Source of the DNA: Sandaracinaceae bacterium
GTDB taxonomy: Bacteria > Myxococcota_A > Polyangia > Polyangiales > Sandaracinaceae
Length of the DNA stretch: 64,000 nt
Direction: 5' to 3'
Assembly (NCBI GenBank): GCA_040218145.1
Contig: JAVJQK010000027.1
Span: 1-64,000, forward strand
Position numbers and translations under genes: made by a program. Positions 1 through 40,884 of this stretch are shown piece by piece (the stretch's first letter is position 1; every line of letters begins with the position of its first letter). The notes below the pieces were generated by a model that was not told where the DNA came from, did not search any database, and saw nothing but the letters and a program-made list of their open reading frames with translations.

Positions 1-136
1 CCGAAGGATCTCGGAGCGCGACGGCCTGATTCTCGGTTCGGGGCGACGAGGGAATGCTTCAGCATTTTCGAGGAGCCACGGGCCGAGAGGCGGGCCGTCC
101 CGCCCGAGAGACGAGGAGCGAGGTTCTTCAACGGGC
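1..136 (-). repeat. Dispersed ~136-nt element, copy 1
   Basis: The reverse complement of this stretch matches 26064-26200. By eye there are about 9 substitutions and one single-base gap over the ~130-base core, plus a further short match (GCCCGT) at the far end. It contains the inverted repeat AATGCT/AGCATT (53-58 and 61-66) with a 2-base loop. On the minus strand it follows the stop codon of the lipoprotein gene 139-1341 almost immediately. It starts at the first base of the window, so it may extend further. No open frame of interest lies in it. It could be a small mobile element or a structured RNA. Confidence 0.85.
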
Positions 137-138
137 TC

Positions 139-1341
139 CTAGGGCTCGAAGACGCGGAACACCTGAAGCATGTCCTGGGCCCGAGGCTCCGCATGGCGGC
201 GGGCGTAGAAGCTCGCCTCCACCCCCACCCAGCCACGCCACTGCCCGCGGTCGTCCAGGATCTGCAGCATCGGCTTCACGTGGGAGTTGCCGTCCGGTGG
301 GTAGCACTCGGCGCCCTGGGCGAGGCACGTGCACCAGTGCCAGAAGGTGTCCCGTCGATCGAACGAGCTCATCTGCTGGATGTAGTACTGGATGGACGTG
401 TCGCCGTCGTAGGGCGCGACGCACCCGGCGCGACAGGAGCGCGGTGACGACGGCTGGAAGTACGTCATGACGTAGGTCGTCGCGCCCGAGCCGTCGCATC
501 GGTCGTAGATGGAGTTCCGCCACGGCAGCGCCGAGGTCGTGGTGATCTCGTCGCGCACCCACTGCACGGTGTCGAAGGCGAGCGGACCCGGGTGCGCTTG
601 CACCGAGGACATCGCGCGGCGCGTGTCGAGCGCGGCGTCGCTCCCGGCCATGAACCCATGCGTCGCCTCGCGCGAGCCCCGCAGCGCGCCCTCGACGAGG
701 AGACCGTCCGCGCGCTCCTCGAGATCCCACGACTCCCAGTACGGCGGCGTCGTGTCGCCCCACCGCAGGATGACCACCGGGGTCCCGCCGATCGTGTCCA
801 TCTCGAACGTCCCGACGCGCACGTCTGCGGGCGCGCCCGCGAAGCCGTCGACCGTCAGGACCTCGCAGCGCTGCACGTCCGCGGATCCGCCCACGCAGTC
901 GCCGGCCGGGGTCGTGCCCGTGCCGACGCGGGCCGCGGGGGCGGTCTGGCTCCAGAGGTACATGCGGGCCGTCACCGCGCCGCTCGGCTCGAACGCGTAG
1001 GTGCCGAGTCGCACTCCGTTGCGGCGAGCCGAGGTCGAGAAGCTGCCCAGCGCGACGACGAAATGGGGGCGCCCGAGCGGGAGGCGAGGATCGTGTCCGG
1101 CGTCGGGAGCGGGAGCGGCGTCCATCGCGCCGACGCCGCTGTCGCCTCCCACCGCGCCGCCGTCGCTCGAGCCGTCCACTGCGCCGTCCACCGCGCCGTC
1201 GCGCGCGGCGCTGGGCCCGGAGTCCCGGACGCTCCTCGCGTCCATCGAGACGTCGGCGTCGCGCGCGACCCCGGCGTCGGCGTCTCCGCCGCCCCCGCAG
1301 GCGAGCGCAAACACGAGGAGGCTCGGGCACAGCACGCGCAT
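139..1341 (-). CDS. Predicted envelope lipoprotein, function unknown
   Basis: I do not recognise a family for this 400-residue protein. The first 20 residues are hydrophobic and end in FALACGGGG, a lipobox-like cleavage site. An Asp/Ala/Gly-rich spacer of about 70 residues follows (DAGVARDADVS, DGAVDGAVDGSS), typical of lipoprotein tethers in myxobacteria. The C-terminal half has clustered cysteines (YDRCDG, RSCRAGC, HWCTCLAQGAEC), which suggests disulphides in an extracytoplasmic protein. The ATG at 1339-1341 was chosen because it directly precedes the signal sequence; the frame stays open 52 codons further upstream but that part lacks lipoprotein character. The gene is divergent from the AgmX-like gene at 1539. 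Confidence 0.8.
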   Translation of the reverse strand: MRVLCPSLLVFALACGGGGDADAGVARDADVSMDARSVRDSGPSAARDGAVDGAVDGSSDGGAVGGDSGVGAMDAAPAPDAGHDPRLPLGRPHFVVALGSFSTSARRNGVRLGTYAFEPSGAVTARMYLWSQTAPAARVGTGTTPAGDCVGGSADVQRCEVLTVDGFAGAPADVRVGTFEMDTIGGTPVVILRWGDTTPPYWESWDLEERADGLLVEGALRGSREATHGFMAGSDAALDTRRAMSSVQAHPGPLAFDTVQWVRDEITTTSALPWRNSIYDRCDGSGATTYVMTYFQPSSPRSCRAGCVAPYDGDTSIQYYIQQMSSFDRRDTFWHWCTCLAQGAECYPPDGNSHVKPMLQILDDRGQWRGWVGVEASFYARRHAEPRAQDMLQVFRVFEP

Positions 1342-20337: not shown

Positions 20338-21525
20338 ATGAGGGCACGTCTCGGAGGGATCCTCGCTTCACTCGCCGCGCTCTGCGCGAGCGGGTGCTTC
20401 GTGGAGTACGGGGGCGGCGGGTGCCGCGCGGACCGGGACTGCCCGGCCGGCTGGTTCTGCGACGTCGACGGGCGCTGCTCGCCCGACGCCTGCACGAGCG
20501 ACCGTGACTGCCCCGTCGGCAGCACCTGCGACGTGCGCGACGGGCTCTGCTACCTCGACGACGCCGAGTGCTACAGCCACGCGGAGTGCCCGGTCGGGTT
20601 CCGCTGCGCGGCCGGCGGCGTCTGCGTCGAGGAGCTCGGCTGCGGGGCCGACGTCGACTGTCCCGCCGGCTACTACTGCGCCATCGACGGCTACTGCTAC
20701 GCGGAGACGGGCTGCGTCTCGGACGCGGAGTGCGGCGCGGGGTGGTACTGCGCGACGGACGGCCTCTGCTACCCGGAGACCGGCTGCGTCTCCGACGTGG
20801 ACTGTCCGGGCGGCTACTACTGCGGCTGGGACGGCTACTGCTACCCGCAGGCCGCGTGCGTGAGCGACGCCGAGTGCGGCGCCGGCTACTACTGCGGCGT
20901 CGACGGCAACTGCTACCGCGCCGCGGCCGGGTGCAGCTCCGACGCGCAGTGCGCGGCCGGCTACTACTGCGGCTGGGACGGCAACTGCTACGCGGACGTC
21001 GAGTGCGTTTCCAGCGCCGACTGCGGCCCGGGCTGGTACTGCGGCTACGACGGCTTCTGCTACCGCGACGCGACCTGCACGAGCGACCTCGACTGCGGCA
21101 GCGGCTACTACTGCGCCTGGGACGGCAACTGCTACCGCGGCGGCGCGGGCTGCGCGAGCGACCTCGACTGCGGCAGCGGCTACTACTGCGCCTGGGACGG
21201 CAACTGCTACCCGTCTTCGACCGGCTGCACGAGCGACTTCGACTGCGGCGGCGGCTACTACTGCGGCTGGGACGGCCTCTGCTACCCGAGCTACTCCGGG
21301 TGCACGAGCGACCTCGACTGCGGCAGCGGCTACTACTGCGGCTACGACGGCAACTGCTACCGGAGCGGCGCCGGCTGCCGCAGCGACGCGGACTGTGGCT
21401 TCGACTACTTCTGCTACAGCGACGGCAACTGCTACCCGAAGTCCGACTCCGGCTGCCTGAGCGACGCCGAGTGCGGGGCCGGCTACTACTGCGACTCCGC
21501 GAGCGGCTACTGCTACCCGCTCTAG
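20338..21525 (+). CDS. Cys-rich lipoprotein with 15 tandem four-cysteine repeats
   Basis: A 395-residue protein made almost entirely of 15 repeats of 23-26 residues with the pattern C-x5-C-x5-C-x5-C (for example CTSDLDCGSGYYCAWDGNC; a few units have six residues in the last gap). About 60 cysteines result. The signal sequence ends ASGC, a lipobox. Repeats 10-13 are nearly identical at DNA level, showing recent unit duplication; the first three and the last are more diverged. Such modules recall EB/dickkopf-like extracellular domains and are common in large myxobacterial genomes, but no function is assigned. Start ATG 20338 follows GCGGAGGGAG; a 14-codon longer frame lacks this. A -10-like TATGCT lies at 20281-20286. 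Confidence 0.85.
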   Translation: MRARLGGILASLAALCASGCFVEYGGGGCRADRDCPAGWFCDVDGRCSPDACTSDRDCPVGSTCDVRDGLCYLDDAECYSHAECPVGFRCAAGGVCVEELGCGADVDCPAGYYCAIDGYCYAETGCVSDAECGAGWYCATDGLCYPETGCVSDVDCPGGYYCGWDGYCYPQAACVSDAECGAGYYCGVDGNCYRAAAGCSSDAQCAAGYYCGWDGNCYADVECVSSADCGPGWYCGYDGFCYRDATCTSDLDCGSGYYCAWDGNCYRGGAGCASDLDCGSGYYCAWDGNCYPSSTGCTSDFDCGGGYYCGWDGLCYPSYSGCTSDLDCGSGYYCGYDGNCYRSGAGCRSDADCGFDYFCYSDGNCYPKSDSGCLSDAECGAGYYCDSASGYCYPL

Positions 21526-24047: not shown

Positions 24048-26003
24048 CTACAGCTCGCCGAACGCGCCGCTGGCCTCGAGCTGGTCGCCGACGATGGAGA
24101 ACGCCGGAGCGCGCGCGCCCAGCAGCGTGCCGGCGGCCACGCCGGTCGGGACCTCGACCCCGGCGCCGAACCGGAGCGACGTGGGCACCATCAGAGCCGG
24201 GACGGGGATGGGCGGGCGCGCGTCCCCGAGGAGCGTGCTCGCGACGTGGTGGCCGAGCACCGCGACGAAGGCGCCGACCTGCGCGCGCTCGTCGGCGCTC
24301 AGGGCGCGGTCAGCGGAGAAGCCCAGCTCGGTGAGCGCGATCGCGCCGACGCCCGGGTGCGTGCCCGGGCTGCCGTCGAGGCTGGCCCGCGCCGTGGCGT
24401 GGAAGCGGATCTGCATCCCCGCGCCGTAGGGCGACGGGCCGGAGACGGTCGCGGTCATGCCGCCCATCATCAGCGAGAGCCCGCCCCCGCTCGTGCTGGC
24501 GACCGCGGGCAGCGCCGACTCGACCTGGATCATGTCCGGCGCGACGATCATGTCCGGGGCCACGATCATGTCCGGCGCGACGATCATGTCGGGGGCCACG
24601 ATCATGTCCGGCGCGACGATGCCGCGCGTCCCGCCCGCGGCCCAGTGCGCGTGGAGCGCCTGGTTGAACACCCCGACCGAGACCGCGACGCCGCTCGCGG
24701 CGCTGAAGGTCCCGACCGTCGCCGCGTCGATCGCCTCGAGCGGCACGCCGAGGCCGGAGGGCGTGCCCCCGCCGGTGGGCGCGTAGCGGGTGCGCACGCC
24801 GAGGCTCAGGCCCTCGGCCTCGGTCGCGAGCACGACGGCCGGCCTGGCGCTGACGTCGATCGCGACGGAGCGCCCGCCGATGGAGGGGAGGAGCAGGTTG
24901 GTCTCCGGCGTCCCGAGCCCCCCGAGCAGCTCGCCCACGAGCGAGGTCGCCGCCTCCGCGTAGAGGTCCGCGATGTCGGCGTTGAGCTCCTCGTCGATGG
25001 CGGCCCGATCCCGGAAGGCGGGCTCGACCAGATCGCGGTGAGGCTCCGGCATGTCCGGGAAGCTCGCCGCGGTGACGCGGAGCTGCACGGACTCCACCGC
25101 CCGAAGGCGCGCCGTCACTTCCCCGGCCTCGAGGCCCACGTCGACCAGGAGCTGCACCTCCACGTCGAAGGTGACCGTGCCCATGGCGTCGAACCTCGAC
25201 GTCCCCTCCGTGCACTCCATGGTCATCTCGTCGCACATGCCCGGCAGCAGGTAGTCCGTGTCGCCCGTCGTGTGCGTGAGGACCTCGACCCCCGAGGCGG
25301 TGGCGTGCACCCGGAAGCCCCCGTCGACGACGGTCAGCGTCGAGTCCGGCGGCTCGGTCAGGGTCGGCGTCGTGTAGTCCACCGAGTCGAACCAGACGCG
25401 CGGAGGGATGTCGACGCAGCCCGTGCCGGGCGGCGGGATGCAGGGCGGCGGCAAGGGGAGCACGTAGGTGCCGACGGGGAGCTCCGCCGCGATGACCGCG
25501 TCGAACAGCCCGCTCTGGCCGGCGCGCAGGAAGACATCGTCCAGGCTCCCGAGCGTGGTGGCGTCGTCGCCGTCGTCCACGGCCGTCTGGGCCAGCCGCA
25601 GCATCGACGTGGCGGCGTCGACGTCGTCGTCCTCGAAGTGCGCGGCCACGAGGAACGAGCAGAGCTGCGTCGCGCCGTCGGCCTCGACGAGGAACGACTG
25701 CACCCCGAAGCGCGCAGGCTTCTCCACCGTGATCAGGCCGTACGCGTCGGGCTCGACCTCTTCGCCGTCCACGCGGACCATGGTCGGGTCGAGCCCGCGC
25801 ACCGCCGCGACGAGCCGCAGCGGCTCCCCCGGCTCGGCGCGGACCATGTCCCCAAAGGCAGGCCAGACGCACTGGATGCCGCCCTCCTCGACGCCGCTGT
25901 CGGGGTCGGGCGCGCCGGCGTCGTCGGGGGCCGGAGCCGGGCCACAGGCGGGAAGCAGGAGCAAGGCGGTGAAGAGGGCGCGGGTCGCTTTCACGCTCGG
26001 CAT
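24048..26003 (-). CDS. Large predicted lipoprotein with a VAPDMI tandem repeat
   Basis: A 651-residue lipoprotein of unknown function. The signal peptide FTALLLLPAC carries a lipobox, followed by the short tether GPAPAPDDAGAPDPDSG. The N-terminal 120 residues resemble an Ig-like domain (GEPLRLVAAVRGLDPTMVRVDG). The remainder is long, low in charge, and beta-rich. Around residue 470 a hexapeptide IVAPDM occurs five times in tandem, encoded by the 18-base repeat at 24529-24618. It is divergent from the molybdoenzyme gene, with dispersed repeat copy 2 in the gap. Confidence 0.75.
   Translation of the reverse strand: MPSVKATRALFTALLLLPACGPAPAPDDAGAPDPDSGVEEGGIQCVWPAFGDMVRAEPGEPLRLVAAVRGLDPTMVRVDGEEVEPDAYGLITVEKPARFGVQSFLVEADGATQLCSFLVAAHFEDDDVDAATSMLRLAQTAVDDGDDATTLGSLDDVFLRAGQSGLFDAVIAAELPVGTYVLPLPPPCIPPPGTGCVDIPPRVWFDSVDYTTPTLTEPPDSTLTVVDGGFRVHATASGVEVLTHTTGDTDYLLPGMCDEMTMECTEGTSRFDAMGTVTFDVEVQLLVDVGLEAGEVTARLRAVESVQLRVTAASFPDMPEPHRDLVEPAFRDRAAIDEELNADIADLYAEAATSLVGELLGGLGTPETNLLLPSIGGRSVAIDVSARPAVVLATEAEGLSLGVRTRYAPTGGGTPSGLGVPLEAIDAATVGTFSAASGVAVSVGVFNQALHAHWAAGGTRGIVAPDMIVAPDMIVAPDMIVAPDMIVAPDMIQVESALPAVASTSGGGLSLMMGGMTATVSGPSPYGAGMQIRFHATARASLDGSPGTHPGVGAIALTELGFSADRALSADERAQVGAFVAVLGHHVASTLLGDARPPIPVPALMVPTSLRFGAGVEVPTGVAAGTLLGARAPAFSIVGDQLEASGAFGEL
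24529..24618 (-). repeat. 18-nt tandem repeat, five units
   Basis: Five exact-length units of 18 bases begin at 24529, 24547, 24565, 24583 and 24601. Units 1, 3 and 5 are identical (ATCATGTCCGGCGCGACG); units 2 and 4 share a different tail (GGGCCACG) and differ from each other by one base. The alternation means a 36-base dimer was duplicated. Each unit encodes IVAPDM on the minus strand. Confidence 0.95.
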
Positions 26004-26063
26004 AATGACACAACCTGAGCGTCATCGCTTTCGTTGCCGCGACTGTACCCGCGTGACCGAGCC

Positions 26064-26200
26064 GCCCGTCCAAGAACCTCGCTCCTCGTCTTTCGGGCGG
26101 GACGAACCGCCTCTCGGCCCGTGTCTCCTCGAAAATGCTGAGAGCATTCCCTCGTCGCCCCGAGCCGAGAATCGGTCCGCCGCGCTCCGAAATCCTTCGG
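26064..26200 (+). repeat. Dispersed ~136-nt element, copy 2
   Basis: This is the inverted partner of 1-136. The perfect stem AATGCT (26134-26139) / AGCATT (26143-26148) has a 3-base loop here against 2 in copy 1, so the only length change falls in the loop. It lies in the 233-base gap between the divergent lipoprotein gene (starting 26003) and the molybdoenzyme gene (starting 26237). The two ends show no terminal inverted repeats and I see no target-site duplication. Confidence 0.85.
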
Positions 26201-26236
26201 GCTCGGTGCTTGGACGGGCTGCTAACCTTCGGCCGG

Positions 26237-28450
26237 ATGGGTGACGGTGAGCGAAAAGGGAAGCTGCATCTCGCGTCGGCGGTGCCGTTCGGCATCGGCG
26301 AGACGAAGCCGCACCACTTCCTCGAGATGGCGGAGATCGCGTGGAAGAACCGCGGCCGCTGGGGATACGCCTGGCGCATCCTCAACGAGGGCGTGTGTGA
26401 CGGCTGCGCGCTGGGCACGACGGGCATGCGCGACTGGACGCTCGACGGCACGCACCTGTGCCTGGTGCGCCTGAACCTGCTCGAGCTCAACACCAAGCGC
26501 CCCTTCGATCCGGAGATCATGGAGGACGTGGGCTGGCTCCCGCGCCGCGCCAAGGATCTGCGGGAGCTCGGCCGGATCCCCGTGCCGCTCCGCCGCCGCA
26601 AGGGCGAGCCGGGGTTCACCGCCGTCTCCTGGGACGAGACCCTCGAGGCGCTCGGCGCGCGGCTGCGTGACGCCGACCCCAAGCGCATGGCCTGCTACAT
26701 GACCTCGCGCGGGATCACCAACGAGGTCTACTTCGCGGCGCAGAAGGCGTGGCGCTACCTCGGCTCGCCCCACATCGACAACGCGGCGCGCCTCTGCCAC
26801 AGCCCGTCGACCGCGGCGATGAAGAGCGTGCTCGGGGTCGGCGCCTCCACGTGCAGCTACCTCGACTGGTACGGCTCGGACGTCATCGTCTTCTTCGGGA
26901 GCAACCCCGCCAACGACCAGCCGGTCGCGCTGAAGTACCTCTACGAGGCGAAGAAGCGCGGCAGCCGCGTGCTCGTCGTGAACACGTTCCGCGAGCCCGG
27001 CCTGGAGCGGTACTGGATCCCGTCGAACGCCGACAGCGCGCTCTTCGGCACCAAGATCGCCGACCGCTTCTTCCACGTCGGCGCGGGCGGCGACCTCGCC
27101 TTCGTCTACGCCGTGATGAAGCTCCTGATCGAGCGCGACGCGATCGACCGCGCCTTCGTCGAGGCGCACACGGCGGGCTACGAGGAGTTCGAGGCGCACC
27201 TCGCGGACCAGGACTTCGCGCACCTCCTCGCGCTGAGCGGCGCGACGGAGGAGGACGTCCGCGCCTTCGCGGACGAGATCGCCGACGCGGAGACGGGCGT
27301 GTTCGTCTGGTCGATGGGGCTGACCCAGCACGCGCACGGGACCGAGACGGTGGCGGCGGTGCTCTGTCTCGGGTTGACCCAGGGCTTCATCGGCCGGGAG
27401 CGCTGCGGGCTGATGCCCATCCGGGGCCACTCCGGGGTGCAGGGCGGAGCCGAGATGGGCGCCTACGCGACCGTCTTTCCGGGCGGCGCGGCGATCACGG
27501 ACGAGGAGGCCGACCGGCTCGAGGCGCTCTGGGGCTTCCGGCCGCCGGCGGAGACCGGCCACTCCACGGTCGAGATGCTCGAGGCCGCGCTGCGAGGCGA
27601 GCTGGACGTGCTCTACGCGGTGGGCGGCAACTTCGTCGACACCCTCCCCCAGCCGCAGCGCGTCGAGGAGGCCGTCTCGAAGGTCCCCGTGCGCATCCAC
27701 CAGGACATCGTCCTGACGCCCAAGATGCTGATCGAGCCGAACGAGGAGGTCTGGATCCTCCCCGCGAAGACCCGCTACGAGCACGAGGGCGGCGTGACGG
27801 AGACCACGACCGAGCGGCGCGTGGTCTACAGCCCGTACGTCCAGGGCCCCGTGTGCGGCGAGGCACGCGAGGAGTGGCGCATCGTGCGGGACCTCGCCCT
27901 GGCCGCGAAGCCCGACGGCCCGCTCGGGCTCGAGGACGCGGCGGCGATCCGCGAGGACATCTCGAAGACCATCGACTTCTACGCGCCCATCGCCTCCCTC
28001 GAGAAGAAGGGCGACCAGTTCCAGTGGGGCGGCCAGCGCCTCTGCGACGGCGGCGAGTTCCCGCTGGAGGATGGCAAGGCGCGCTTCCGGACCTTCGATC
28101 CGCCCGACCTCCGGCCGCAGGCCGAGGACGAGATGTACGTCACGACCCGGCGCGGCAAGCAGTTCAACTCCATCGTGCAGCACGACGTCGATCAGCTCAC
28201 CGGCGCGGCGCGGGACCACGTGCTGATCTCCCGCCCCGACATGGAGCGCCTCGGCGTCGAGCAGAACCAGGCGCTGCGACTCGAGAGCCCGCACGGCACG
28301 TTCACCGGGCGCGCCTTCGCGGCGCCGATCACGCCTGGCAACCTCCAGCTGCACTGGCCCGAGGCGAACGTGCTGCTCGATCCGGAGCGCGTGGACCCGG
28401 GCGGGCTGGTGCCCGACTACGGCACGCGCGTCCGCGTGTCGGTCGTATGA
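26237..28450 (+). CDS. FdhF/YdeP-family molybdopterin oxidoreductase
   Basis: A 737-residue molybdenum enzyme of the YdeP branch of the formate dehydrogenase H family. GVCDGCALGTTGMRDW near residue 55, followed by HLCLVRLNLLELNT, is the characteristic N-terminus. Later blocks include YMTSRGITNEVYF, GSNPANDQPVALKYL, MPIRGHSGVQGGAEMG and the C-terminal cofactor domain RRGKQFNSIVQHDVDQLTGA. YdeP relatives have been linked to acid resistance; the true substrate is unknown. I do not see the usual N-terminal CxxC-x3-C iron-sulfur pattern of full formate dehydrogenases. ATG 26237 is the start; the stop overlaps the fdhD start by 4 bases. Confidence 0.85.
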   Translation: MGDGERKGKLHLASAVPFGIGETKPHHFLEMAEIAWKNRGRWGYAWRILNEGVCDGCALGTTGMRDWTLDGTHLCLVRLNLLELNTKRPFDPEIMEDVGWLPRRAKDLRELGRIPVPLRRRKGEPGFTAVSWDETLEALGARLRDADPKRMACYMTSRGITNEVYFAAQKAWRYLGSPHIDNAARLCHSPSTAAMKSVLGVGASTCSYLDWYGSDVIVFFGSNPANDQPVALKYLYEAKKRGSRVLVVNTFREPGLERYWIPSNADSALFGTKIADRFFHVGAGGDLAFVYAVMKLLIERDAIDRAFVEAHTAGYEEFEAHLADQDFAHLLALSGATEEDVRAFADEIADAETGVFVWSMGLTQHAHGTETVAAVLCLGLTQGFIGRERCGLMPIRGHSGVQGGAEMGAYATVFPGGAAITDEEADRLEALWGFRPPAETGHSTVEMLEAALRGELDVLYAVGGNFVDTLPQPQRVEEAVSKVPVRIHQDIVLTPKMLIEPNEEVWILPAKTRYEHEGGVTETTTERRVVYSPYVQGPVCGEAREEWRIVRDLALAAKPDGPLGLEDAAAIREDISKTIDFYAPIASLEKKGDQFQWGGQRLCDGGEFPLEDGKARFRTFDPPDLRPQAEDEMYVTTRRGKQFNSIVQHDVDQLTGAARDHVLISRPDMERLGVEQNQALRLESPHGTFTGRAFAAPITPGNLQLHWPEANVLLDPERVDPGGLVPDYGTRVRVSVV

Positions 28451-31602: not shown

Positions 31603-31755
31603 ACACCTCGCTCGCCCCCGCCCACCGACGAGCCCCTCCTCGTTCCCCTGCTCGCTCTCGTCCCCCTCGATCGCTCTCGCATCCACCGCGTGCGCACGGG
31701 AACGATGCGGCGCGGCTGCGGCGCCGGACGAGGGCGCCGATGAGAAGCGGAAGCC

Positions 31756-32155
31756 GCTGCGGTGGCGGCTGCGGATGCGGACTGCGGAGGCGGAGGCGGA
31801 GGCGGAGGCGGATGCGGAGGCGGATGCGGCTGCGGATGCGGCCGCGGTGGCGGATGCGGCCGCGGTGGCGGATGCGGCCGCGGTGGCGGATGCGGTGACG
31901 CGAGCGACTGCGGGAGCGGAAGCGGGAACGGGAGCGGGAACGGGAGCGGGAGCGGCAGCGGGAACGGCAGCGGGAACGGGAACGGGAACGGGAACGGGAA
32001 CGGGAACGGGAACGGGAACGGGAACGGGAACGGGAAACGGAACGGCTGCGGAAGCGGCTGCGGAAGCGGCTGCGGAGGCGGAGGCGGTGGCGGAGGCGGA
32101 TGCGGTGGCGGATGCGGCCGCGGTGGCGGACGCGGCAGCGGGAGCGGCAGGCGGA
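31756..32155 (+). repeat. GC-rich hexamer array between convergent genes
   Basis: About 400 bases of imperfect hexamers. The flanks are GCGGAN units (GCGGAG, GCGGAT) with an 18-base sub-unit GCGGCCGCGGTGGCGGAT repeated three times (about 31842-31895). The centre holds ten uninterrupted copies of GGGAAC at 31972-32031. G3 runs spaced by three bases could form G-quadruplexes on the plus strand. Open frames across it encode only Ala-Glu, Gly-Thr or Gly-Cys dipeptides and run antisense into the acetyltransferase gene, so I do not call a protein. The 153 bases before it (31603-31755) hold only a short hairpin at 31719-31739. Confidence 0.9.
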
Positions 32156-32166
32156 AGCGTCCCGCG

Positions 32167-32718
32167 CTACTCGCGCACGGGGGGCGGCTTCACGCGGCCC
32201 CCTCCGCGCTTCGGCTTCTTGACCGGCGCCTTCTTCCCCGACGAGAGGTTCTTCTCCAGGTAGACGTGCTCGCGCGGGTTGCCGAAGCCGTGCTTCTCGA
32301 AGAAGCGCACCGCCTTCTCGTTCGCCGGGTCGGTGTCGGCGAGCAGGATGCGGCAGCCGAGCTCGCTGAACGCCTCGGTGACGCGCTCGAGGAGCTTGCT
32401 CGCCACGCCGCCGCGGGCCGCGTCCGGGTCGACGCCGATCCACACCACCCAGCCGTAGCTCCACGCGCTGCGCCGCTTCTCCAGCACCGTGCCGAGCACG
32501 AACCCGACCAGCGCGTCCTCCTCGTCGACCGCGGCGAAGCAGGTGTCCCAGTCGGACGCGAAGAAGCCGACCAGCTCGAACTCGTCCCAGGTCCGGTAGA
32601 GGCTGGGGAACGTGCCCGCGCGAAAGAGCTTGGCGCCGAGGTGATAGACCGACGGCAGGTCGTCGATGCTCATGGGGCGCACCGAGATGGCGCGCTTGTT
32701 CTTCTTGCGGTCGCTCAC
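32167..32718 (-). CDS. GNAT-family N-acetyltransferase
   Basis: A 183-residue GNAT acetyltransferase. VWIGVDPDAARGGVASKLLE is the acetyl-CoA pyrophosphate loop (Q/RxxGxG/A-like), followed by ADTDPANEKAVRFFEKHGF, the usual fourth motif. The C-terminal 25 residues are Lys/Pro/Gly-rich (KKAPVKKPKRGGGRVKPPP), possibly nucleic-acid contacting. The acceptor is unknown. The 3' end abuts the hexamer array. Confidence 0.85.
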   Translation of the reverse strand: MSDRKKNKRAISVRPMSIDDLPSVYHLGAKLFRAGTFPSLYRTWDEFELVGFFASDWDTCFAAVDEEDALVGFVLGTVLEKRRSAWSYGWVVWIGVDPDAARGGVASKLLERVTEAFSELGCRILLADTDPANEKAVRFFEKHGFGNPREHVYLEKNLSSGKKAPVKKPKRGGGRVKPPPVRE

Positions 32719-38721: not shown

Positions 38722-40884
38722 CTACTTCGCTTTCTTCGTCCAGGGCGCGAGATCGGCGAGCTCGTCGAAGGTCGGGAAGGTGCCGGTGAAGCGCCAGCCG
38801 CGATCGTCGAGGTAGAGCTCGGCGGGGGGCTTGGCGACCGGAAAACGGACGCGGGCCAGCACGCGCTCCTCGAGGCCGTGCTCGCGAAGCCAGGCCTTCA
38901 TCACCTCGATCGCGCCCGGGAAGCTCGAGCGGACGGAGCAGATCGCGAGGTCGAACCGCTCGGCGGCCTGGGTGAGGAAACGGATGGCGCCGTCGACCGG
39001 AGGATCCGGGATCGACAGAGGGCCCCGCCAACCCGAGCGGTAGCTGTGCAGGACGCCGTCGAAGTCGAGGCAGAGGGTCCGGCGGTGCTTGCCGCGGCCG
39101 ACGCGCTGGACCTCGCCGGGGAGATCCGAGAGATCCTCGCCCGAGAGGACACGCTCCTTGGCGCGGGTCGCCTCGGCAGGGGTGAGGAAGCCGCGGCTCT
39201 GGAGCGCCTCGAGCCGCTCGAGGGCGGAGACCAGGTCGTCGCCAGACGCAGCGGCGTCGGCCGAGTCCGCCGCTCTCTTCGGCTCCGCGTCCGGGCCCGC
39301 CTCGGCCTCCGCTTCCGCTCCCGTTCCCGTTCCCGTTCCCGTGCCCGTGCCCGTGCCCGTGCCCGTTCCCGCTGCCGCGTCCGAGTCCGCTACCGCGTCC
39401 GAGTCCGCTACCGCCTCCGCGTCCGCTCCCGCCTCCGCCTCCGCATCCGCATCCGCATCCGCATCCGCCTCCGCTCCCGCGTCCGCGTCCGCGTCCGCCT
39501 CCGCCTCCGCCTCCGCCTCCGCCTCCGCCTCCGCCTCCGCCTCCGCCTCCGCCTCCGCCTCCGCGTCCGAGTCCGCCTCCGCCTCCGCTCCCGCCTCCGA
39601 GTCCGAGTCCGCCTCCGCCTCCGCCTCCGCCTCCGCGTCCGCCTCCGCCTCCGCCTCCGCCTCCGCCTCCGCGGCCGAGTCCGAGGCCGAGGCCGAGTCC
39701 GGGTCCGAGTCCGAGGCCGAGGCCGAGGCCGAGTCCGGGTCCGAGTCCGAGTCCGAGTCCGAGTCCGAGTCCGAGTCCGAGGCCGAGTCCGAGTCCGAGA
39801 CCGAGTCCGAGTCCGAGTCCGAGTCCGAGTCCGAGTCCGAGTCCGAGTCCGAGGCCGAGGCCGAGTCCGAGTCCGAGTCCGAGGCCGAGTCCGAGGCCGA
39901 GTCCGTCCTCGTGCTCGCGCTCGTTCCCGCTCCCGTCCCCGCGCCGTGCACCCCACCCTTCACGGCCGCCACGAGCTCCTCGGGAGCCTCCCACTCCATC
40001 TCGAGCTCCCACGGCTCGTCGACGAAGTACAGCGCGTCCGGGTCCTGGTGATCGACGTAGTCCTTGTCCGGATCCTCGCCGCGGATGGCCGACGGTTCGC
40101 CGTTGCGAGGGCGGTGGGGCTCGAGATCGAGGGACGTGCGGCGCGAGAGGATGCCCTCGTCGACGGGATCCAGGATCGCACCGGGGCGCGCGTACGCTTC
40201 GCGGGGCCAGTCGCGGTGCGGGACGGCGGGCAAGGCGTAGGTCGCGGCGGGGCTCTTCATCGAGGGGTCGATGGTGAAGTGGGCGCGCTCCTCCGCCCAC
40301 GACCAGACCGCGGCCCAGTCCTCCGCCGGGACGGAGAAGGCGAGCGGCATCACCACGCGGAACCGCGCGTGCTCGGCGGTGTGAGACCACGTCGTGTAGA
40401 CGAGGTGGAAGAAGGTGCTCCAGGTCGTGCTCGCCTCGGCGATGGGCGTGCCGTCGTCGTAGTCCAGCACCAGGCAGCTGACGTGGGTGACGTTGTCGCT
40501 GCCGCGCTTGTCGGCGCCGGGGCGGTAGAGGGCCGGAGACCACAGGCGCAGGTCTCGCTTGGCGCTCTTGTAGGCGTCGGTGATGAGCTGCTCCGCCGCC
40601 TCTTGCACCACCGCGCGCGGATCGGCGCCGCGCTTCTTCGCCTCGGCCTCCACCTTGGAGAGCTTGCCCATGAACTTGCCGCGGACCGGCTTGCCGTCGG
40701 CGAGCTGCTGGCGGGCGTGCTTGATGCGCGCCACCTCGCGCTCGATCTTGGACGCCGTCTCCATCTTGATCTCGAACCGTCGGAGCGCCGCGGTCAGCTC
40801 GGGCAACGTCAGGACCTCCTGCTCGGGCGTCGTGTCGAAGACGCGCAGGAAGGTGCAGGCGGGGATGAGGAGCGAGCCGCTCAT
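38722..40884 (-). CDS. Primase-like (AEP) domain fused to HAD phosphatase by a long SD/AE linker
   Basis: A 720-residue fusion. Residues about 110-225 look like an archaeo-eukaryotic primase/PrimPol-type domain: CLVLDYDDG (Asp141, Asp143), [19 protein letters not shown] (His168) and [19 protein letters not shown] (Asp206) are the three motif regions of plasmid and phage primases of this fold. Residues about 321-530 are nearly pure Ser-Asp, Ala-Glu/Asp and Gly-Thr dipeptides. A short SHOCT-like helix pair follows ([20 protein letters not shown]), then a HAD domain: [12 protein letters not shown] (Asp607, Asp609) and YLDDRGWRF, similar to phage polynucleotide-kinase-type phosphatases. The start ATG overlaps the upstream gene's stop (ATGA). 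No helicase, integrase or capsid gene is near. Domain calls are by motif only. Confidence 0.7.
39300..39910 (-). repeat. Coding hexamer array (SD / AE / GT linker)
   Basis: About 600 bases of imperfect hexamers inside the primase-HAD gene. On the minus strand the order is GACTCG-type units (Ser-Asp), then GCGGAG/GCGGAT units (Ala-Glu, Ala-Asp), then GGGCAC and GGGAAC units (Gly-Thr). The last two classes are the same units seen in the non-coding array 31756-32155, in the opposite orientation. Confidence 0.9.

Follow-up and report, generated by a model that had tools for sequence, protein, structure and literature searches.

The window (the whole 64-kb stretch of DNA analysed here) holds two copies of a palindromic repeat, here termed family A. 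The full element, copy 2, spans nt 26060–26224 with its purine-rich, better-folding strand on the minus strand, and lies in the divergent gap between the frame at nt 24048–26003 (minus) and an ORF whose start is probably close to nt 26237 (plus). Its intact terminus is CTGCTA (nt 26219–26224, plus strand; TAGCAG on the minus strand); the opposite terminus, at nt 26060, is decayed and reads AGCCGC after G, thus the TA is lost at this end. Copy 1 (nt 1–141, purine strand on the plus strand) carries a terminal TA at nt 140–141 and is truncated, since position 1 of the window is also position 1 of the contig (G000:C27). The TAG at its end (nt 139–141, minus strand) is the stop codon of the adjoining ORF (nt 139–1497, minus). 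In a genome search the similarity originally noticed between positions 1–136 (minus) and 26064–26200 (plus) was confirmed (91% match, E 1.2e-48); however, the 136-base length then proposed is to be revised to ~165 bp, as indicated by the span of copy 2 and by the cut of copy 1 at the contig start. The apical core, with the layout GCGACGAGG-stem-loop-TTCGAGGAG and two tandem GA/GA 2x2 loops, is found at nt 26125–26158 (minus) in copy 2, and its counterpart in copy 1 at nt 43–76 (plus). Other repeats of the window include 72–75 bp tandem repeats at nt 20483–21520, resembling a cysteine-rich coding repeat, and 12/18-bp repeat tracts at nt 31755–32190 and 39222–39890, complementary to each other at 71–79%.

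The preliminary description had the repeat as present twice. On the contrary, searching the genome to which the window belongs (G000, of a marine myxobacterium; 11 Mb in 148 contigs) retrieved family A at no fewer than 40 places, with 22 complete copies at distinct sites, and a local inverted duplication giving rise to only two copies is excluded by this number. Many copies lie at contig ends, indicating that the assembly breaks at the family A repeat, which explains these interruptions. There were 426 loosely matched ends, compared with 137 when the control pattern, a reversed one, was used, so that the true copy number is likely higher than 40. Dozens of copies were also detected in a second assembly of the same species (G182), and a GTDB scan showed the core on numerous contigs of Sandaracinaceae bacterium MED-G138.

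Family A is a near-palindrome, and most of its 22 complete copies, which have different flanks, show TAGCAGnCCGTTGAAG at the start and the complement of this sequence at the end. The signature C-TA[...]TA-G was seen at most of these sites, the outer base being C in 14/22 and G in 18/22; the target CTAG is split, with a TA flanking the element on either side. When the joined flanks of 16 of the sites in the window's genome were sought in the second assembly, most were occupied there too and two were empty. In the clean case the empty site reads GTCTAACGCG and the occupied one GTCTA[GCAG...CTGC]TAGGCGCG or, in compact form, GTC-TA-ACGCG versus GTC-TA[element]TA-GGCGCG, that is, a TA duplication plus a small difference beside it; the other empty site (L160) is ragged, and a clean TA is thus seen at only one of the two. 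The direction of change at the empty sites would be a gain rather than a precise loss. The TA duplication, the CTAG sites and the empty site indicate MITE-like behaviour of the element, with insertion at CTAG. Indeed, it is short (~165 bp), non-coding and dispersed over at least 40 places, it has terminal inverted repeats (TAGCAGnCCGTTGAAG ends) within C-TA...TA-G and one clean empty site, and its ends are shared with an insertion sequence (IS) of the species.

This IS, found intact in the second assembly after broken IS ends only had been met at two loci (L114 and L115), is ~1.5 kb long, carries a 484-codon open frame with the Pfam domains DUF772 and DDE_Tnp_1, and has the ends CTAGCAGCCTGTTGATTTAC and CTAGCAGCCCGTTGACGAACC. 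The family A ends agree with the second of these (CTAGCAGCCCGTTGACGAACC) at 19/21 and 19/22 positions (86–90% over 21–22 bp). No credible match was found between the interiors of the IS and of the element, and an origin of the element by internal deletion of the IS is ruled out, as only the ends match. The transposase gave its best score with IS1182 (178.8 bits, below the curated NCBIfam cut-off of 270), and the partner is therefore named IS1182-like. In the window's genome, contigs C60 and C61 break off within this IS, which is thus present, though unassembled, in the host of the window; the insertion site of the IS in G182 had no matching locus in G000, an uninformative result. These data lend good support to a MITE-type element partnered by an IS1182-like IS. 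From the shared ends we infer that the IS1182-like transposase may mobilise the element in trans, as proposed for RUP (PMC2229807); nevertheless, some members of the IS1182 family replace palindromes instead of mobilising them (PMC5678879), so that the shared ends could have another origin. Related IS copies with TAGCAGCCCGTGGAC-type ends were seen in genome G159, and an IS with TAGCAGGCTGTTGAAGAA-type ends in G119 (L107:1501–2913), its ORF resembling an IS5/IS1182-type transposase. A candidate coding partner within the same termini in G020 (contig C7) was rejected, being two separate repeats 2.7 kb apart around ordinary genes. No transposase homologue was detectable in G002, which has about 70 such ends, and no partner IS was found for the termini of G034 and of family B (see below).

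Termini and TA duplication account for the spread of the element, and one could suppose that the ends alone matter, the body being a functionless by-product of palindrome formation and copying. In line with this, palindromes in genomes G042 (L076:1501–1657) and G020 (L119:500–640), each with dozens of matching ends, share the family A terminus without a common core, their bodies consisting of several short hairpins. We regard this explanation as unlikely because it does not predict three observations, namely the strand bias, the covariation and the persistence of the tip under different termini. As for the first, both strands of a perfect palindrome are expected to fold alike. Here the purine-rich strand forms one ~60-bp hairpin and folds better in 21/22 representatives of all types, and in every copy examined of family A and of the G002 and G041 elements; for copy 2 the energies are −104.4 kcal/mol (minus) versus −82.1 (plus). 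In a Watson–Crick-only fold of the 22 representatives, opposed G.T and A.C mismatches stand at 75:9; copies in one genome share ancestry, and the independent units behind these counts are the families, about a dozen. The hairpin is far beyond chance even on the plus strand of copy 2 (z −5.2), as it is on the purine strand of another copy (z −10), and dinucleotide shuffling gave z values of −10.1 for family A, −13.0 for G002, −11.0 for family C and −11.7 for family B. Identity with a known RNA family was discarded, as the Rfam covariance search of the window retrieved nothing at the gathering score; in a search of four loci down to E 1 the only hit was one miRNA model, whose score of 27.8 bits lies below its cut-off of 79.

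The tip of family A is built of two or three tandem GA/GA internal loops, whose GA pairs we take to be of sheared geometry. In the most stable folds of 34 elements, the loop next below the tip stem has GA opposite GA in 25, and a second or third such loop follows one to three pairs further down in about 22 of the 34 (manual count). A C.C mismatch plus a bulged A in GGAGCGCGACG/CGTCCCGCCC is the second recurrent feature of the tip. A kink-turn reading was dropped, the loops being symmetric 2x2. In 13 sequences aligned without structure (alignment A5), 82% of the cells are paired and 34 doubly changed, versus 27–43% and 4–10 for slid structures, and the covariation score is 0.403 versus 0.05–0.12; covariation is thus above that of every slid version. 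The lone C-G pair between the GA loops is invariant in this alignment, hence lacks covariation support there, and is replaced by G-C in the longer type of G117. A MAFFT alignment of all core types (A2) misaligned the longer tips, and the counts are not based on it.

The same tip occurs, with covariation, under many different termini. The covariance model gave hits in 17/183 genomes of the order, in elements pre-selected for the core, and in two of another family of the phylum (G188 and G254), both with a similar-folding tip. Families B (ends TAGTGCGAGATCC...) and C (ends TAGAGAGGCGATCC...) were found independently of the model, as neighbours of family A copies. Elements of G028 and G015 have TAGAGCCCGTCTCATAAAT and TAGAGCACATCTCAAAAAT ends and an interior in common with family A; the similarity of the own element to that of G028 (70% over ~119 nt) is confined to nt 28–143 of the query. 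Elements that differ in their termini retain an interior in which one particular strand forms a long hairpin. Family B (L003:1330–1500 and L284–L306, in the window's genome and in the second assembly) is a ~163-bp palindrome with TAGTGCGAGATCC ends, about ten copies and three tandem GA/GA loops, one copy adjoining a family A copy. Family C (L019:1655–1820, L027, L187 and L188) has TAGAGAGGCGATCC ends and the same tip as family A, and one of its copies appears to have inserted at a family A terminus. Mini palindromes of ~55–60 bp in G034 (L265:~201–260 and L275:~1461–1520) correspond to the two ends of the G034 element without the core. A literature search for such repeats in myxobacteria yielded nothing relevant. 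Genome-wide copies and covariation, the check originally suggested for separating a miniature mobile element from a structured RNA family, came out in favour of both: the number of copies, the duplicated TA at the target, the empty site and a resident IS sharing the ends speak for the former; strand-biased wobble pairs, covariation and a non-canonical tip kept across genera for the latter, with transcription as a presumption.

Compared by architecture, the element works like ERIC, NEMIS and RUP yet is a separate family, differing from them in its partner, its host group and a core kept under changing ends. We know of no tandem GA/GA tip in NEMIS/Correia elements. RUP, paired with IS630-Spn1, is likewise a non-coding intergenic multicopy repeat of ~100 bp with TA target, IS-like ends and proposed trans mobilisation, but its partner is IS630 and not IS1182-like, it measures 107 bp, and the review cited mentions no conserved folded core for it (PMC2229807). 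ERIC/IRU (RU-1) is also an imperfect palindrome of <200 bp, with TA termini, duplication and a long stem-loop transcript (PMC2229807); in contrast, it is 127 bp long and enterobacterial, and the core under different termini is a feature of the element described here. NEMIS/Correia is a TA-flanked miniature element too, and RNase III is proposed to cleave the hairpin of its RNA within adjacent mRNAs (PMC2229807), although it belongs to Neisseria and measures 107/155 bp. The palindromic intergenic repeat YPAL/RU-2 is close in size (~168 bp; PMC2229807) but has no TA at its termini and makes duplications of 3–26 bp. GTAG and CGTC REPs/REPINs are dispersed palindromes of diverse families as well (PMC3733652); their 20–40 bp units with a terminal GTAG or CGTC tag differ from the single ~165-bp hairpin found here, which has DDE-type TAG...CTA ends. 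Finally, IS1272 and other palindrome-targeting elements of the IS1182 family are transposase kin with a similar link to hairpins (PMC5678879), but IS1272 replaces target hairpins without target duplication, whereas here the hairpin itself moves.

Taken together, we consider it probable that family A is a palindromic element, inserting at TA and mobilised by an IS, and that selection acts on its folded strand, probably an RNA. A non-autonomous MITE-type palindrome of ~165 bp, duplicating TA at CTAG and present in dozens of copies, would be moved in trans by the IS1182-like transposase; its folded strand would function at the RNA level, in transcripts either of its own or coming from adjoining genes, and the core would be maintained by selection on this RNA, as with NEMIS and ERIC transcripts folding in host mRNAs. 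A strand acting as RNA would be the likeliest cause of the strand bias.

Alternatively, the relevant single strand could be DNA, e.g., a hairpin that extrudes on a lagging strand, or on one that has been displaced, and to which a protein of the host or of transposition would bind. DNA, too, can form tandem GA and G.T pairs, and no orientation bias relative to genes was seen. Copies are intergenic, in convergent, tandem and divergent gaps, and the terminal TAG often serves as a stop codon; in nine tandem-gene contexts (simple ORF calls) the purine strand has the orientation of the genes three times and the opposite one six times, revealing no read-through bias. A role limited to read-through mRNA finds no support in gene orientation. 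On the other hand, DDE transposases, to which the matching one belongs, act on double-stranded ends, and we judge a DNA strand quite unlikely. That the palindromes are mere landing sites, on which an IS1182-like element replacing inverted repeats left its ends, in the way IS1272 of the same family replaces stem-loop targets (PMC5678879), is most improbable, given that the two empty sites of the second assembly hold no palindrome at all and that the CTAG/TA signature recurs at 22 sites, both indicating that the palindromes themselves reach new sites.

Returning to the reading of a mobile element with a selected RNA strand, a further step, which we put forward tentatively and which may well not hold, is that the elements represent a previously undescribed structured RNA family, recognisable by a ~60-bp hairpin with two or three tandem GA/GA loops stacked close to its tip, and spreading in myxobacteria under the ends of any available TA-inserting transposon. 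The usual view of palindromic repeats in bacteria is that they are passive hitch-hikers, with the ends as their defining feature. In the present case the ends change while the folded tip of one strand persists from genus to genus, a pattern suggesting that a structured single-stranded molecule has spread on termini borrowed from transposons. The old question of whether selection acts on such repeats as nucleic acid structures becomes testable here, given a set of defined motifs, a candidate transposase and a covariance model.
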